Shown in pieces: positions 7,530 to 50,068 of a DNA stretch of 56,494 nucleotides. Numbering within the stretch: position 1 is the stretch's first letter; each line of letters opens with the position of its first letter. This stretch comes from Lachnospiraceae bacterium (GTDB lineage: Bacteria > Bacillota > Clostridia > Lachnospirales > Lachnospiraceae). The notes beneath the pieces were generated by a model. It was not told where the DNA came from and ran no database searches. It saw only the letters and a list, made by a program, of their open reading frames with translations. The DNA is taken from positions 1 to 56,494 of the forward strand of contig JAKSRP010000007.1 of NCBI GenBank assembly GCA_024403555.1, read 5' to 3'. Position numbers and translations under genes: made by a program.

Positions 7530-8885
7530 ATGGAAAATATTACAGTAAAAGAAATTTTAGAAGCGACAGGCGGAAAGCTGCTTTGTGGCTCTAGTGATAA
7601 AGTAATTGCACATTTTTGCATCGACTCCCGTCAGGCAGACGAAACTTCTTTATTCGTGCCAATCATCGGGGAACGAGTAGATGCACATAAATTTATGGAT
7701 GGAACAATTGCAGCAGGCGCTGCTTCTCTTACAATGGAACATGATTCCTACGAAGCAGACCAGCCAGTCATCAAGGTTCCTGATACCATCAAAGCAATGC
7801 AGGATCTTGCTATCTGGTACCGCAACAAGATGGATCTTCCAATCGTTGCCGTTACCGGTTCTGTTGGTAAAACAACAACACGTGAGATGATTACCTGCGT
7901 ATTAAAAGGAAAATTCAAAGCATTCGAAACAAGTGGCAATCAGAACAGCCAGATTGGGGTTCCTCTTACGATCGATAAGATGAGCTACTCTGATGAAATT
8001 GCAGTTTTAGAGCTTGGAATGAGCGAACGCGGCCAGATTACGATTTTAACAAATATTGCCCAGCCTAATGTTGCTGTTGTAACAAATGTTGGGGTTGCTC
8101 ACATCGAGATGTTAAAGACACGTGAAAATATCTGTGCCGAAAAGCTAGATATTCAGAAAGGCTTAAAGGAAGGCGGCGTGATGTTTATCAATGGTGATAA
8201 CGATATGCTTTCTGCTCATGCTGCTGAACTTGTGAATCATCCATTTAAATTCTATGGATTTGGCGAAAACTGTGATATCCGTGCCGTTGACGTAAAGGAA
8301 ATCGGCGGACAGACAGAATTCACCTGTCTCATGGATGGTAATGCTTATCCTGTAGTCCTTAATTCTCTCGGCGACCATATGGTATTAAATGCTCTTGCTG
8401 CCATCGGTGTTGGGGCTCATTTTGGTATTCCTGTATCTGTTGCAAGTGAACAGTTATCTGGATTTAAAGGACAGCGTCAGGATATCCGTGAAAGCAATGG
8501 CTATACAGTCATTGATGATACTTACAATGCAAGCCCAGATTCCATGAAAGCGGCTCTTAGCATCTTAAATGGCATGAATGGCAAAAACAACAAGATTGCC
8601 GTCATCGCAGATATGCTTGAACTCGGACCAAACTCCCCAGCTTACCACAGAGAAGTAGGCGAATATATCGTTGGTACATCCATCACAGACGTATTTGCCG
8701 TTGGGGAAATGATTGACTATGCGTTAGAAGCAATTCGCGAAGGCAATGTGGATATCGCAATTCATAAATTCGAAAACAACGAAGAACTGACCGCTGCGCT
8801 GAAAGACTTTGTAAAAGAAGGCGATGCAGTGCTTCTTAAGGGATCGAATGGAATGAAGTTAAAGCAGGTGGCTAATCAGTTATAG
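7530..8885 (+). CDS. murF: UDP-N-acetylmuramoyl-tripeptide--D-alanyl-D-alanine ligase
   Basis: Adds the D-Ala-D-Ala dipeptide made by Ddl to the UDP-MurNAc tripeptide, the last cytoplasmic ligase step. The 451-residue protein has the Mur ligase P-loop GSVGKTTTRE (from residue 110), the GNQNSQIGVP motif, the lysine segment CAEKLDI, and DDTYNASPDSM, all typical of MurF. It begins one base after the murE stop. The partner ligase ddl is present on the other strand at 33-34 kb. The gene ends at a region of large inverted repeats that separates it from the converging amylase gene. Confidence 0.95.
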   Translation: MENITVKEILEATGGKLLCGSSDKVIAHFCIDSRQADETSLFVPIIGERVDAHKFMDGTIAAGAASLTMEHDSYEADQPVIKVPDTIKAMQDLAIWYRNKMDLPIVAVTGSVGKTTTREMITCVLKGKFKAFETSGNQNSQIGVPLTIDKMSYSDEIAVLELGMSERGQITILTNIAQPNVAVVTNVGVAHIEMLKTRENICAEKLDIQKGLKEGGVMFINGDNDMLSAHAAELVNHPFKFYGFGENCDIRAVDVKEIGGQTEFTCLMDGNAYPVVLNSLGDHMVLNALAAIGVGAHFGIPVSVASEQLSGFKGQRQDIRESNGYTVIDDTYNASPDSMKAALSILNGMNGKNNKIAVIADMLELGPNSPAYHREVGEYIVGTSITDVFAVGEMIDYALEAIREGNVDIAIHKFENNEELTAALKDFVKEGDAVLLKGSNGMKLKQVANQL

Positions 8886-8928
8886 TTTGGATTTGGCTTG
8901 CATCACTTATACGCACTAAGATTAAAAA

Positions 8929-9110
8929 AATTAGAACAACTAGCAGCCATGTTTTCTTTTTGCTTATAGAAGTGTTTTTTGAATCATGGACATCTATCAA
9001 GAGGGTGTATCCCACTTACGTACGTTAAGACTACGTCTTTCCGTTCGTAGAGGGGATACACCCTCTTTCTATCTGTTCATGTCGCTAAAAACACATATTA
9101 TTTAACAAAT
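8929..9110. repeat. Degenerate inverted copy of the 9112-9416 palindromic element
   Basis: The stretch between murF and the amylase gene holds no credible gene. Here a 65-bp nested hairpin (9001-9065) is built from GAGGGTGTATCCC and GGGATACACCCTC. Inner arms are TACGTACG/CGTTCGTA and AAGAC/GTCTT around a 3-base loop. It is the reverse complement of the hairpin at 9228-9294 apart from a few bases. Its left flank (8929-9000, with CCATGTTTTCTTTTTGCTTA) matches, inverted, the right flank of that second hairpin (9293-9364). The outer terminal repeat seen on the second copy is not recognisable on this copy's left side. Confidence 0.85.
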
Positions 9111-9111
9111 C

Positions 9112-9416
9112 ACTTCTTGTTTTAATGACTAGGACGGTTTCTTCCAACGCATGAAGCAAAAAACACTAGAACTACTTCATTCAGGTTTTCTTTGCTGCTA
9201 AATGTTTTTTGTTGTATGGACAGATGAAAAGGGTGTATCCCGAATACGAACGGAAAGACGTAGTCTTAACGTACGTAGGCGGGATACACCCTTTGAAAGA
9301 TGTCCATACTTCAAAAAATACTTTCAATAAGCAAAAAGAAAACATGGATGTTAGTTGTTCTTGTTTTTTCGCTTTAAGTTGGAAGAAACCGTCCTAGTCA
9401 AATTAAAACAAGAAGT
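9112..9416. repeat. 305-bp palindromic element with 36-bp terminal inverted repeats
   Basis: The outermost arms pair almost perfectly: ACTTCTTGTTTTAAT plus TGACTAGGACGGTTTCTTCC (9112-9147) against their complement at 9378-9416, with only a small indel. Moving inward, GTATGGACA pairs with TGTCCATAC, AAAGGGTGTATCCC (9228-9241) with GGGATACACCCTTT (9281-9294), TACGAACG with CGTACGTA, and AAGAC with GTCTT around GTA. All share one centre near 9261. Neither side ends in a T run, so this is not a simple terminator, though its place between convergent genes fits a transcription barrier. The form resembles a MITE; I see no clear target-site duplication. Confidence 0.85.
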
Positions 9417-9429
9417 ACTTTACTAATGC

Positions 9430-10977
9430 TTATTTGTGTTTCTTATTATTAAAAATCCACTGACCAATCTTCTTAACAACTCCAAAGATCTGTTTCAAAC
9501 TAATCTTCACTTCTAACACTGCTTTTCCACTTGGAATCCATACAGATACACTTCCGCCTCTTACGCGGAATTCTCCCCAGCCGTCCTGATTGATCTGGAC
9601 GCGGCCGAGATCTGGATTTAAGGCATCAACGAAATATTGTCCGGCATGGTGTTTGCCGACTTCCATCCATTTCGAACCTTCTGGCCCGTCAGAACAGAGT
9701 AACGCAAGACCATTTGCCTCGTTTTCGCCTTCACGGGTAAATCCTACCACATCAAAGTGATCAAAATAATCATGCTGCATGCCGTAAGCATGAGTTTTTC
9801 GAAGCTTCATTAAGGTATTAAGCTGTGCCACCGGTTTTACTTCGTGTTCTGGGTCATTTACGCCATAATAATCGCCGTAGAATACACATGGAATACCTTT
9901 TTCCTGTAATAAGATGATGGCATAAGCAATCGGCTTGAACCAGTCAGACACCCAGGTGCCTAACGCTTGTCCTGGCTGGGTATCGTGGTTGTCGACAAAT
10001 GTCACTGCATGCCAAGAGTCAACTCCGGTGAGCGTATTGTCAAAAAGCTTCGCCATGTCAAACTGCCCATTTGCATTGGAAATATTGGCAAAATTCATAT
10101 GCAATGGCACATCGAATAGATTAATTTTTCCTTCTGTCTGGTGGATATAATTTCGAAGCTTTCCAAGATCGCCACTCCAGAATTCCGCCACGGTAAATGC
10201 TTCTTCGCCGGAAAAATCACGAATTTCCTGAATCCAGTCTTTGTAAAAACCGGCACTCATATGCTTCACTGCGTCCAAACGGAATCCATCTATATCTGCA
10301 AAATGATAGTACCATTTGCCGAATCGGATCAGCTCTTCGCGTACTTCCGGATTTTCTAAATCAATATCGGCACCCATCAGATAATCGAAGTTGCCATTTT
10401 CATTATCGACGTCTCTTGCCCAGTTCTTTCCTTCAAAAAGGAAGATGCCGTTTCGCCCCTGGCCATCACGTTCCGTGTAGTCAACACTTTTAAAATGATT
10501 GTGGTTCCATTTAAACGGGCTATAGGCATTACCACGGCCATCGAAATTAAACTGAGTAAATGCTGTTGCGCAGATTTTATCGGACATTTTAAAGTTGCGG
10601 TTGTCATAAGCTACTTCATAGCCTTCAACCGCTTCCGGGCCGTCCGCACCCATCTTATGATTTAACACGATATCGGCCAGAACCTGTACACCCTGGTCAT
10701 GAAAGGCACGAATCGCTTTAAAATATTCATCTTTTGTTCCATATTTTGTTGGAATGGTTCCCTTCTGATCGAATTCGCCCAGATCGTAAATGTCATAGAC
10801 TCCGTATCCCACGTCGTTCATGCCTCCCATGCCTTTATAAGCCGGCGGCATCCACACCATGGTCACCCCTGCATCGGCAAGCTCATAGGCTTTGGCGCGA
10901 AATCGGTTCCAGTTCTTTCCGTCTCCCGGCAGATACCATTCGAACATCTGAAACATCATTCTATTTTTCTGATTCAT
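9430..10977 (-). CDS. Cytoplasmic alpha-amylase (GH13)
   Basis: Endo-acting hydrolase of alpha-1,4 glucans, likely used on intracellular maltodextrins or glycogen because no signal peptide is present. About 515 residues. The four GH13 regions are clear: DIVLNHK (I), GFRLDAVKH with the nucleophile Asp (II), FTVAEFW with the acid/base Glu (III) and FVDNHDT (IV). The N-terminus FQMFEWYLPGDGKNW matches the liquefying amylase subfamily (GH13_5). A beta-rich C-terminal domain is followed by a short basic tail. The chosen ATG (10977) lies inside the 3' end of the ABC-F gene, so the two are probably translationally coupled; upstream in-frame GTG/ATG codons at 11010-11013 are possible alternatives. 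A glycogen synthase gene is at 43-44.6 kb. Confidence 0.9.
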   Translation of the reverse strand: MNQKNRMMFQMFEWYLPGDGKNWNRFRAKAYELADAGVTMVWMPPAYKGMGGMNDVGYGVYDIYDLGEFDQKGTIPTKYGTKDEYFKAIRAFHDQGVQVLADIVLNHKMGADGPEAVEGYEVAYDNRNFKMSDKICATAFTQFNFDGRGNAYSPFKWNHNHFKSVDYTERDGQGRNGIFLFEGKNWARDVDNENGNFDYLMGADIDLENPEVREELIRFGKWYYHFADIDGFRLDAVKHMSAGFYKDWIQEIRDFSGEEAFTVAEFWSGDLGKLRNYIHQTEGKINLFDVPLHMNFANISNANGQFDMAKLFDNTLTGVDSWHAVTFVDNHDTQPGQALGTWVSDWFKPIAYAIILLQEKGIPCVFYGDYYGVNDPEHEVKPVAQLNTLMKLRKTHAYGMQHDYFDHFDVVGFTREGENEANGLALLCSDGPEGSKWMEVGKHHAGQYFVDALNPDLGRVQINQDGWGEFRVRGGSVSVWIPSGKAVLEVKISLKQIFGVVKKIGQWIFNNKKHK

Positions 10978-17370: not shown

Positions 17371-19356
17371 CTAATCTAGATCATAGTCTCTGAGTGCAAT
17401 CTTATATTCTTTTAACTGATCACGATACATCGCTGCGTGTTCGAAATCAAGCTCTGATGCTGCTTGATTCATCTTCTTCGTCAGCTTCTTGATCATGTCT
17501 CCTAATTCTTTCTTATTCATGGATTCCGCATCTTTTGTATCTTCTTCTACTTTCACATCTTCGGCAATGGAAATCAGATCACGGATGTCCTTCTTAATCG
17601 TCTGCGGAATGATGCCATGTTCCTTATTATACTGATCCTGAATTTCTCTACGACGTTCAGTCTCTGTAATCGCGTTGTACATAGAATCTGTCATATGATC
17701 TGCATACATAATAACGCGACCTTCAGAATTTCGTGCTGCACGACCGATTGTCTGTACAAGAGAGGTTTCCGAACGTAAAAATCCTTCTTTATCTGCATCT
17801 AAAATCGCTACAAGCGTAATTTCCGGAATATCAAGTCCTTCTCGCAAAAGGTTGATGCCCACAAGTACATCAAAGATTCCCATTCGAAGATCACGCACAA
17901 TCTCAATACGCTCTAATGTGTCGATATCGGAATGGAGATACTTCACTTTAATATCCACTTGACGCATATAGTCGGTCAAATCTTCTGCCATACGTTTCGT
18001 AAGAGTTGTTACAAGCACCTTATTACCTGCTGCCACTTCCTTATTCACTTCTGTAATCAAATCATCAATCTGACCCTCAACAGGACGCACTTCCACCTTT
18101 GGATCTAACAGTCCAGTCGGACGAATGATCTGTTCCGCACGAAGAAGTTCATGCTCATCCTCATACACATTTGGTGTAGCGGAAACGAAAAGCATCTGAT
18201 CGATCTTGGTTTCAAATTCTTCAAAATTAAGTGGACGGTTATCTAATGCTGATGGAAGACGAAAACCATAGTCTACCAAAGTCTGCTTACGGGAGCGGTC
18301 CCCCGCATACATACCACGTACCTGTGGCATGGTAATGTGGGATTCATCGATGATCATTAAGAAATCATCTCCGAAGAAGTCCATCAAGGTATTTGGAGTA
18401 GCTCCAGGTGCAAGTCCTGCTAAATGTCTGGAATAATTCTCAATTCCAGAGCAGAAACCGGTCTCCTTCATCATCTCCACATCAAAATTGGTTCGTTCCG
18501 CAATTCTCTGTGCTTCTAAAAGCTGGTCATTCTCTTTAAAGTAAGCAACCCTCTCCACAAGTTCTTCCTTAATATCCTTGATCGCACGCTCCATCTCTTC
18601 TTCTGGAACTGCATAATGGGAAGCTGGGAAAATCGCCACAAAGCTTAAAGAACGCTTCATCTCACCGGTTAAAATATCAAATTCTACGATTCGGTCAATC
18701 TCATCACCGAAAAATTCTACACGCACCGCGTCCTCAAAAGTGGAAATCGGCACAATTTCAAGAACATCTCCCTTCACACGGAAGGTACCACGTTTAAAAT
18801 CAAGTTCATTACGAATGTACTGGATGTTAATCAGCTGATCAATTACTTCATCACGATCCTTAATCATGCCTACGCGAAGAGAAAGCATCATCTCTGCGTA
18901 GTTTTCACGGGCACCAATACCATAGATACAGGAAACGGAGGAAATAACAATAACATCCTTACGTTCAATCAGTGCTGCGGTAGCACTGTGGCGCATCTTA
19001 TCGATTTCATCATTCACAGAAGAATCCTTCTCAATATACGTATCGGTGGAAGGAACGTAAGCCTCCGGCTGATAATAATCATAGTAGGATACAAAGTACT
19101 CTACCGCATTCTCCGGGAAGAATTCCTTGAATTCACTGTATAACTGAGCTGCTAACGTCTTATTATGAGCAAGCACCAAAGTTGGTTTATTCAGTTGTTC
19201 AATTACATTCGCCATGGTAAATGTCTTACCAGATCCTGTTACACCTAATAATGTCTCAAACTGATTCCCTTCACGAAAACCATCCACCAATGCCTTGATT
19301 GCCTGTGGCTGATCACCGGTCGGTTCATATTCTGAATGTAATACAAAATGATCCAT
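17371..19356 (-). CDS. uvrB: Excinuclease ABC subunit B
   Basis: Helicase-like damage verification subunit that recruits UvrC. The 661-residue protein has Walker A GVTGSGKT (38-45), the beta-hairpin region [21 protein letters not shown], the DESH box ([10 protein letters not shown]), helicase motif [11 protein letters not shown], and a C-terminal UVR domain ([18 protein letters not shown]) that binds UvrC. The start at 19356 follows AAGGAGG; an earlier in-frame ATG lies upstream of that site. It is first gene of the uvrB-uvrA unit. A LexA-type palindrome is about 75 bp ahead. Confidence 0.96.
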
Positions 19357-19429
19357 ACTAATTCCTCCTTCGTCCATTCGTCTATGGTTAAGTATAGCAA
19401 ATGAAATTTTAAATGTACAGATATTTTTT

Positions 19430-19443
19430 CAAACAAACGTTCG
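19430..19443 (-). promoter_or_regulatory. Probable LexA (SOS) box upstream of uvrB
   Basis: On the minus strand the site reads CGAACGTTTGTTTG, matching the Firmicute LexA pattern CGAAC-N4-GTTCG at all but one position. It lies upstream of a possible uvrB promoter (TGTACA at 19414-19419, 17 bp, TATACT at 19391-19396). SOS induction of uvrBA is common in Firmicutes, which supports the call. Confidence 0.65.
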
Positions 19444-19491: not shown

Positions 19492-19776
19492 GGTACGCGT
19501 TTTCGTGTTTCTTATCATATGCGTCCCATTTTAACCTACCATTAGGACGCGTATAGAAATATTTCCTTTTTCGCGTACTAGAAATAATAACACAAACTAT
19601 GAATTGTACCCCATGTCAAGGACACGCAAAAAGTTTTTTGCGTGTCCTTGACATGGGGTACAATTCAAAGTAAACTAGCTTTTTCCTCAGTACGCGTAAA
19701 TCCATCTTTTCTTATTCGCGTACCAGACACTCACTTTTTCAGGACGCAAATCCTAAAAAATAATCCATCGCGTACT
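19492..19776. repeat. 285-bp stepped palindrome with a perfect 66-bp core
   Basis: The uvrB-AEC gap (19378-19813) has no credible gene. Its core (19601-19666) is a perfect inverted repeat of 32-bp arms with a 2-base centre. Outside it, four short GC-rich motifs on the left find their complements on the right at mirrored positions: GGTACGCG 19492 with CGCGTACT 19769, GCGTCCC 19521 with AGGACGC 19741, GGACGCG 19545 with CGCGTACC 19717, and CGCGTACT 19572 with AGTACGCG 19689. All are in register within a base or so. The rungs are 24-29 bp apart and separated by AT-rich sequence of low similarity. No T run follows the core. Confidence 0.87.
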
Positions 19777-19813: not shown

Positions 19814-20752
19814 TTAAATCAATCCCATACTAGACAATGTAAATACCATCAAGAAGATTGTCAGCACACAACAAACTGACGTGGTTGCCACAATTTCACC
19901 AGCTAATTCACCATTTCCTCCCATGGACTGTGCCATTGGAGCAGATGCAACTGCCGTTGGGGATGCGAACACAGCAAGAATCGCAACTAGCGCATCTCCA
20001 CGATATCCAAACAGAATAGAAATTCCAAGCATGATAAGTGGATAAATAACTAATCGACCTGTATTTGCTGCAACAAGCATCTTCGCATGATTAAGCATGC
20101 TTCCAAAGGATAACATACCTCCAAGACTTACCAGCGCAAGAGGTGTTGCGATATTGCCAAGATTCATCAATGGTTTAGCCAGCAAGATTGGAACTGGTAT
20201 ATGGAAGAATGCAAAGATAATGCCAAGTACCCCTGCTTCCACCAGTGGATTCTTGGCGATATTTAATAATACTCCGGAAACCTTCACCTTACCGCCTCTG
20301 TTCGTCTCAAACAAAAGAACTGCGAGCACATTGAATAAAGGTACAATCAGGGATGCAAGCGCACTTACAAAAGCAACACCAGCCGGTCCGCACAGAGATT
20401 CACCGATCGTATTACCGAACAACACGAAGTTGCTTCGGTAGATTCCTTGAGTCAGAGCTGTAACATCCGGCATCTCTTTCACAAATTTACGGCACAATAA
20501 GAAGGTGATTGTAAAAAGAATGACCACACTCACGCTGACATAAATAAAAAATACCGGCTTTACCGTTTCTCCAAGGTCTGCATCATAAACATTAAAGAAT
20601 AAAGTCAATGGGATAAATATTCGAAAAATCATAGTATTGAGGGCCTTAAACTGATCTTTCGCAAGAATCCCAAGTTTACGAATAAGTCCTCCAACCGCCA
20701 TATAGACAACAAAAGGCACCACAACCGATGCCGCGAGAAAAAAGCTTTCCAT
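19814..20752 (-). CDS. AEC family permease
   Basis: Predicted membrane carrier of the auxin efflux carrier (AEC) family; bacterial members move organic acids such as malate or malonate, or amino-acid derivatives, but the substrate cannot be read here. The 312-residue protein has about ten hydrophobic segments in two halves, with the family segments LNTMIFRIFIPLTLFFNV in the first half and NIATPLALVSLGGML plus FASPTAVASAPMAQ in the second. The ATG at 20752 follows AAAGGAGA; ATG codons farther upstream are less well placed. It is flanked by palindromic elements on both sides, so it looks monocistronic. A second member of the family is at 34456-35400. Confidence 0.85.
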   Translation of the reverse strand: MESFFLAASVVVPFVVYMAVGGLIRKLGILAKDQFKALNTMIFRIFIPLTLFFNVYDADLGETVKPVFFIYVSVSVVILFTITFLLCRKFVKEMPDVTALTQGIYRSNFVLFGNTIGESLCGPAGVAFVSALASLIVPLFNVLAVLLFETNRGGKVKVSGVLLNIAKNPLVEAGVLGIIFAFFHIPVPILLAKPLMNLGNIATPLALVSLGGMLSFGSMLNHAKMLVAANTGRLVIYPLIMLGISILFGYRGDALVAILAVFASPTAVASAPMAQSMGGNGELAGEIVATTSVCCVLTIFLMVFTLSSMGLI

Positions 20753-20828
20753 AAGAAAAATCTCCTTTAACATACACACATAATTTCGTTATCTTTTATT
20801 ATAATACAAACCTATAATAATAGATACC

Positions 20829-24718: not shown

Positions 24719-24737
24719 ACAAAATATCAATACTGGT

Positions 24738-24829
24738 ATTTCCCTACGTTGGCATTATCCAAATCAGGTTATGGGTCAAGGAAATACATCCTACTCTCAG
24801 CCTGCTTTTCGCAAGCCCCCCGGTTACAA
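24738..24829 (-). promoter_or_regulatory. TPP riboswitch (THI element)
   Basis: The minus-strand sequence contains the conserved aptamer blocks in order: the G-rich P1/P2 start (CCGGGGGGCTTGC), GCTGAGAG, CCTTGACCC, AACCTGAT, GGATAATGCCAACG and TAGGGA. It binds thiamine pyrophosphate; the downstream terminator suggests transcription is stopped when TPP is plentiful, lowering thiamine-precursor import and salvage. Confidence 0.96.
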
Positions 24830-24834
24830 TATTC

Positions 24835-49866: not shown

Positions 49867-49918
49867 TATTGGTGCACCTCCTTGTAAATTTTTGAGTATG
49901 CCGCCTGATTGGGATAAT

Positions 49919-50033
49919 AAAAAAAGCTCCCTATCCTTAGACAGAGAGCGACATTAATCATCTTCAACTTAATATCCTCGGTAGGTTGATCTACGTTACG
50001 TCTTGCGACACCTACTGTCTTCGGCAGTCTTAC
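49919..50033 (-). promoter_or_regulatory. L10 leader with attenuator
   Basis: From the predicted start of transcription the RNA holds GACTGCCGAAGACAGT, an AGTAGGT/ACCTACC stem, and a terminator stem GCTCTCT/AGGGAGC (49926-49949) followed by seven T residues, about 50 bp before rplJ. This matches the Firmicute L10(L12) leader, where the L10-L12 complex binding favours termination. Confidence 0.88.
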
Positions 50034-50039
50034 CAAACT

Positions 50040-50068
50040 AAATTACCATATATACCGAAGAGTGTCAA
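50040..50068 (-). promoter_or_regulatory. Promoter of rplJ-rplL
   Basis: Perfect TTGACA (50063-50068), 17 bp, TAATTT (50040-50045) on the minus strand, just ahead of the L10 leader. Confidence 0.8.

Follow-up and report, generated by a model that had tools for sequence, protein, structure and literature searches.

Extragenic arrays of REPs in alternating orientation are known as BIMEs, and according to PMC2817692, REPs usually exceed 100 copies per genome and the palindromes of Stenotrophomonas BIMEs are kept by complementary changes. According to PMC1525189, two elements of the IS3 family, IS1397 and ISKpn1, insert into extragenic palindromic repeats. The open-licence literature that we searched contained no account of an array like the one described below. 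It lies in a Lachnospiraceae bacterium, on a 56,494-nucleotide stretch that we analyzed over its whole length and call the window (contig C67 of an 81-contig, 86% complete assembly). We consider it probable that this locus is a BIME-like array of low copy number, possibly made of protein-binding sites, that a palindrome of IS3-family ends interrupts upstream of the SOS box of uvrB. The features of the locus, in window coordinates, are these:

17371..19377, minus strand: downstream neighbor, which by recognition we take to be uvrB; its N-terminal part is matched in five of five genomes of the genus, including this one.
19391..19419, minus strand: possible promoter of uvrB, by consensus match only: TGTACA-17-TATACT, its second hexamer preceded by TG.
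19430..19443, minus strand: presumed LexA (SOS) type box CGAACGTTTGTTTG upstream of uvrB, assigned by consensus; the sole match in the window, with 0.10 expected.
19493..19526, plus strand: array unit W4, half-site GTACGC and inverted GCGTCC; matches models R1 and R2 by construction.
19545..19578, plus strand: array unit W3, half-site GGACGC and inverted GCGTAC; in the models by construction.
19600..19632, minus strand: left arm of the core palindrome; 19600-19624 is a likely copy of an IS3-family right terminal inverted repeat, with its tip at 19600.
19635..19667, plus strand: right arm of the core palindrome; 19643-19667 is a likely second copy of that right end, with its tip at 19667.
19690..19723, plus strand: array unit W2, half-site GTACGC and inverted GCGTAC; in the models by construction.
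19742..19775, plus strand: array unit W1, half-site GGACGC and inverted GCGTAC; in the models by construction.
19814..20779, minus strand: upstream neighbor, which by recognition we take to be an AEC-type transporter gene; it adjoins uvrB also in the congener L007.

Eight GKACGCR half-sites flank the core palindrome at a spacing of 28-24-28 bp on either side, the six-base half-sites starting at 19493, 19521, 19545, and 19573 on the left and at 19690, 19718, 19742, and 19770 on the right. They form the four 34-bp units listed above, each consisting of a half-site, about 20 bp, and an inverted half-site. A first-pass annotation of this DNA had described a stepped palindrome with rungs mirrored to within about a base, and the half-site coordinates and spacing bear this out, every half-site centre falling no more than 1 bp from its partner's mirrored position. 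Its further statement that all four rungs pair with their complements holds exactly for two pairs (CGCGTACT/AGTACGCG, and GCGTCC/GGACGC over 6 bases) and approximately for the others, GGTACGCG/CGCGTACT being complementary at 7/8 positions and GGACGCG/CGCGTAC containing one mismatch. The core, given there as perfect with 32-bp arms, is indeed strictly perfect, over 33 bp (19600-19632 with 19635-19667), and sits within an inverted repeat of 37-nt arms that are 97% complementary and 2 nt apart (19596-19632/19635-19671).

Outside the core, seven complementary six-mers are mirrored (slop 2). When the right flank is shuffled base by base 2000 times, the count averages 0.15 and never exceeds 5; among the 55,403 other centres of the window, 15 also reach seven. 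Each flank is in addition self-palindromic, with three mirrored six-mers about its own centre, so a core lying midway between the two blocks must look mirrored. The stepped mirror symmetry thus follows from the alternating symmetry of the array together with a near-central palindrome.

The rungs also occur apart from the core. A model built from the four window units only (R1) has independent matches on two other contigs of the same genome: C55 (E 0.0024, with a second unit at 2.0) and C25 (E 0.026 and 0.16). A model built from 11 units including those of C55 and C25 (R2) delimits three units at C55:3861-4011 and four at C25:11591-11804. Both arrays are intergenic, and their units stand there without the core palindrome, which makes rungs and core separable. 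A further R1 match, at C78 (E 4.7), was rejected, with half-sites absent nearby. The genome thus holds 11 units in at least three places, counted in the 86% complete assembly with 150 of 448 first-look candidates scored; because R2 scored only part of the candidates (150 of 288-1203 per relative), the three places are a lower bound. Same-strand spacings are 52 and 52 bp in the window and 50, 56, 53, 52, and 65 bp elsewhere, and given this range of 50-65 bp we make no claim of strict helical phasing. The roughly 55 bp that immediately precede the C25 array (L075) contain another repeat, TCGGACCTTTGTTAGGTTT, present twice in tandem and once more in part.

Among 250 genomes of the family, the exact array pattern matches the own genome five times per strand, at the window, C55, and C25, and five of the 249 others once each, with the reversed control matching about 23 genomes; the pattern is repeated within a genome in one of the 250 sampled. 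That draw contained a single congener, G003, and all four congeners were included in the search of 30 relatives with R2, which gave matches in six, at one or two per genome and E values from 0.009 to 0.31. No rungs occur in the uvrB loci of the four congeners, two of which (G001 and G002) have another sequence upstream of the gene. Likewise, the 520 nt behind the orthologue of the C25 gene contain no half-sites in any of the four; the C25 array stands where gene order changed, the next gene behind the orthologue differing in all four. At both compared places, then, the congeners are without such an array. Compared with plasmids, the C25 array yielded one short piece. Short rung patterns gave at least 120 matches in viral contigs, of which six contigs were inspected. 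Among the matches listed, L202 and L140 carry dense GTACGCG clusters at another spacing, and L123 and L182 carry scattered sites at 73% and 60% GC. Two viral metagenomic contigs (L255, 1820-2000; L315, 3370-3540) are GTACG-rich and have in common an arrangement of GTACGCGTACGTACGC repeats that may be an origin or operator region.

We picture the locus as two layers. The first would be an intergenic array, dispersed at low copy number over at least three places, whose 34-bp units mostly follow each other at 50-56 bp; it most likely serves as, or derives from, sites for a putative dimeric DNA-binding protein. The second would be a 68-bp palindrome between the second and third array units, composed of two IS3-family right ends that point their tips outward and have lost all internal DNA; it probably arose when an IS remnant underwent fold-back copying or a deletion. 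This layering leaves unexplained the near-exact centring of the core (mirror axis at 19634.0 for the rungs vs 19633.5 for the core) and the gap between the array halves, which is 25 bp more than an 18-bp spacer plus the palindrome. A more ambitious account would take arrays of alternating GKACGCR half-sites with a 28/24-bp beat as an undescribed, lineage-restricted element that a putative architectural or regulatory protein binds at a few sites between genes, including the one before the SOS gene uvrB, the bound array organizing its exact middle such that the palindrome arose or was kept there. We hold that account to be unlikely, though it is the foremost of the alternatives.

The core likely has its source in two copies of an IS3-family right end, placed head to head. 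The 19-bp arm motif GTCCTTGACATGGGGTACA, allowing one mismatch, occurs at 44 sites in 17 of 299 family genomes, the own genome included with two sites; by our reading of the table, the reversed motif used as a control matched one genome. Thirty of these loci were fetched, 28 of them outside the own genome. At 19 of the 28, the inner side is less than 175 bp from the contig end, as in collapsed repeats, and at the nine with 1500 bp of inner DNA an IS3 DDE motif lies inward in four and a transposase motif is absent in five. One of the ORFs with this motif was tested and is an IS3-family transposase (NF033516, E 9.6e-79) with rve domains. In all four DDE-bearing elements the arm motif sits behind the transposase, that is, at the right end. 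The window arm is identical to the right ends of these four elements, judged as IS3-family by DDE motif or NF033516, at 23, 22, 22, and 22 of 25 positions, a similarity that is partly a matter of selection because the right ends were found through the arm pattern itself (19 bases, at most one mismatch). Left ends were taken as the best match, and those of three elements agree with the window arm at 16, 16, and 18 of 25 positions, the left end of L049 being unsettled and L051 having a second left-end candidate. Because the motif lies behind the transposase in all four elements and the other end differs, both window arms are of the right-end type.

Two of three complete elements have a 3-bp target duplication (TGA and AAG) and the third has none. 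The palindrome is flanked by CTA and AAG, with no such duplication, and its two right-type arms do not make up the left and right end of an element; between them lie 2 nt and no OrfAB transposase. Nor was the IS3 transposase (NF033516) found in the own assembly (86% complete). Since it has neither transposase nor target duplication, the palindrome is expected to be inactive except where a transposase is supplied in trans. The IS end carries an outward-pointing TTGACA, followed in the window by TAAACT 17 bp on (19648-19676). Across the 3-bp circle junction of a complete element, the left tip TAAAAT would come to lie 17 bp from TTGACA, an arrangement comparable to the junction promoters of IS3-family circles. 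In [Eubacterium] eligens (L018, NC_012780.1, 3001-3029), an intergenic stretch next to a peptide deformylase gene contains a palindromic remnant, about 40 bp long, whose IS ends are similar (TTGTACCC...GGGGTACAA).

Action in trans is what the next reading assumes, in which the palindrome is a MITE of an IS3-family element, the whole of it being the mobile unit. Its tips do point outward, the arms cease to be perfectly complementary at the IS tip, and each arm retains 22-23 of the 25 positions of the end. A MITE is expected in several genomic copies, however, and the palindrome occurs once in the own assembly; the paired-arm pattern, searched with no mismatch beyond one N per arm, is absent from 396 other family genomes, leaving one of 397 with the paired arrangement. 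Together with the missing 3-bp duplication and the presence of two right ends in place of one end of each type, this makes the MITE reading unlikely. In a comparison of the 451-bp region with 41 genomes (the own and 40 relatives), the matches outside its own genome were two weak ones, in G021 and G033 (E 5.7e-4 and 9.6e-4), of which that in G033 is a single 78% end-like stretch. The 24-base arm pattern had no match in viral contigs, and the 19-base pattern had one exact match in each of four, that in L086 being followed by a partial second copy. Compared with phages and plasmids, this region of the window gave one phage and three plasmid records, with pieces of 21-29 bases and E values up to 10.

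A different possibility is that the array belongs to a genuine REP/BIME family mobilized by a RAYT (Y1) transposase. The flanks are extragenic and place GC-rich motifs in alternating orientation at fairly regular spacing, as do the BIMEs described in PMC2817692, and PMC1525189 has IS3-family elements entering such repeats. Against this, 11 units fall far from the more than 100 copies given as usual for REPs in PMC2817692, no Y1_Tnp match was found in the 86% complete assembly, and palindrome-preserving changes are absent in the 11 units. We accordingly find a RAYT-borne family somewhat harder to accept than a MITE.

The genomic setting offers a point of comparison. In L007 the stop codon of the AEC gene is followed after about 10 nt by the LexA-type box GAACAAAAGTTC of uvrB, and both array and palindrome are missing; the corresponding distance in the window, from the AEC stop to the box CGAACGTTTGTTTG, is 370 bp. 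Because this adjacency is conserved, the AEC-uvrB join, as distinct from the palindrome itself, is not chimeric. The likely outcome is local, a very stable DNA or RNA hairpin that would separate the AEC gene from the promoter region of uvrB without disturbing the SOS box, and the insertion may affect transcription here. One such effect would be bidirectional termination between the two genes, for which the intergenic position and a hairpin of −59.7 kcal/mol speak. Yet neither arm is followed by the T-run that completes an intrinsic terminator, and a terminator scan did not report the core, giving one other, weak site instead; we judge this role improbable. Rfam had no match above gathering score at the palindrome and two elsewhere in the window, a TPP riboswitch (24724-24832) and a ribosomal protein L10 leader (49911-50042). 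The window also contains, at 8880-9441, a second, larger nested palindrome with stacked arms of 101, 66, 60, 49, 40, and 32 nt around GGGTGTATCCC / GGGATACACCC hairpins, between genes that we take by recognition to be murF-like and alpha-amylase-like.

The core alone, which forms the hairpin of −59.7 kcal/mol, folds with a z of −15.2, and the whole 311 nt of core and flanks has a z of −14.7 on the plus and −12.5 on the minus strand. Taken alone, the W4-W3 block reaches −5.5 (plus) and −2.8 (minus) and the W2-W1 block −4.0 (plus) and −5.9 (minus); C55 and a 150-nt piece of C25 that covers three of the four units there reach no more than −0.8 to −2.1. In the minimum-energy fold of the whole 311 nt, the innermost rung pair alone is paired as mirrored, and in the left flank rung 2 pairs with rung 3. 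Across the 11 units, the stem pairs in 83% of cells compared with 14-62% in slid versions, a high value that is expected because the half-sites are inverted. No covariation rises above shuffles, 436 of 500 of which reach the observed share of paired cells, and stem columns 8/40 and 13/35 are unpaired in 7/11 and 5/11 units. A protein site or plain common descent suits these data better than an RNA stem, because the GKACGCR consensus is kept and the pairing is not.

These results bear on the functions that the first-pass annotation had proposed. Folding of both strands, which it had suggested, confirmed a very stable whole and did not pair the rungs beyond the innermost pair as mirrored; rung palindromes elsewhere in the genome turned up as the core-less arrays at C55 and C25, weakening the idea of a single hairpin; and rungs that fail to covary, which it had named as refuting its proposal, are what the 11 units show. 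Its selected cruciform or long RNA hairpin with evenly spaced clamps is therefore not supported, given the core-less arrays, self-palindromic flanks, fold, and missing covariation. Its other suggestion, a protein array site, is the one that we prefer for the rungs, which are perhaps binding sites for a putative protein. One selected unit with GC rungs as clamps is the least probable of the readings weighed here, for although the mirror symmetry is well above chance, the whole folds very stably, and the window blocks alone reach z values of −5.5 and −5.9 on their better strands, the arrays at C55 and C25 lack the core and fold weakly, no covariation is seen in 11 units, and the innermost rung pair alone is paired as mirrored in the minimum-energy fold.

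Our preferred reading, an array split by IS3-family ends, implies that a convincing "designed" palindrome can come from two unrelated repeats. The insertion parts uvrB from its upstream neighbor without displacing the SOS box. Should the array have a function, it would represent a BIME-like array of sites, apparently in Lachnospiraceae, with no Y1 transposase found, and its three defined places could be used to fish out a binding protein.

Set beside the REPs and BIMEs of E. coli, Xanthomonas, and Stenotrophomonas, the array is similarly extragenic, with alternating GC-rich motifs at fairly regular spacing, and differs in its few copies, the absence of a detected RAYT gene, and the lack of a covarying stem. 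Many of the REPs listed in PMC2817692 begin with GTAG, whereas the array units have GKAC half-sites at both ends. The core shares with IS3-family right terminal inverted repeats the 25-bp end TRAANTGTACCCCNTGTCAAGGACA, found in one element with an NF033516 transposase and four with a DDE motif; unlike an IS3-family element, it would consist of two right ends head to head, with no internal DNA and no target duplication. IS3-family DNA inside such an array is unsurprising, because IS1397 and ISKpn1 insert into repeats of this kind. As in those insertions, the IS3-family DNA here lies within an array of extragenic palindromic motifs, and it differs from them in that it is a rearranged remnant, sits in a spacer, and represents a single case.
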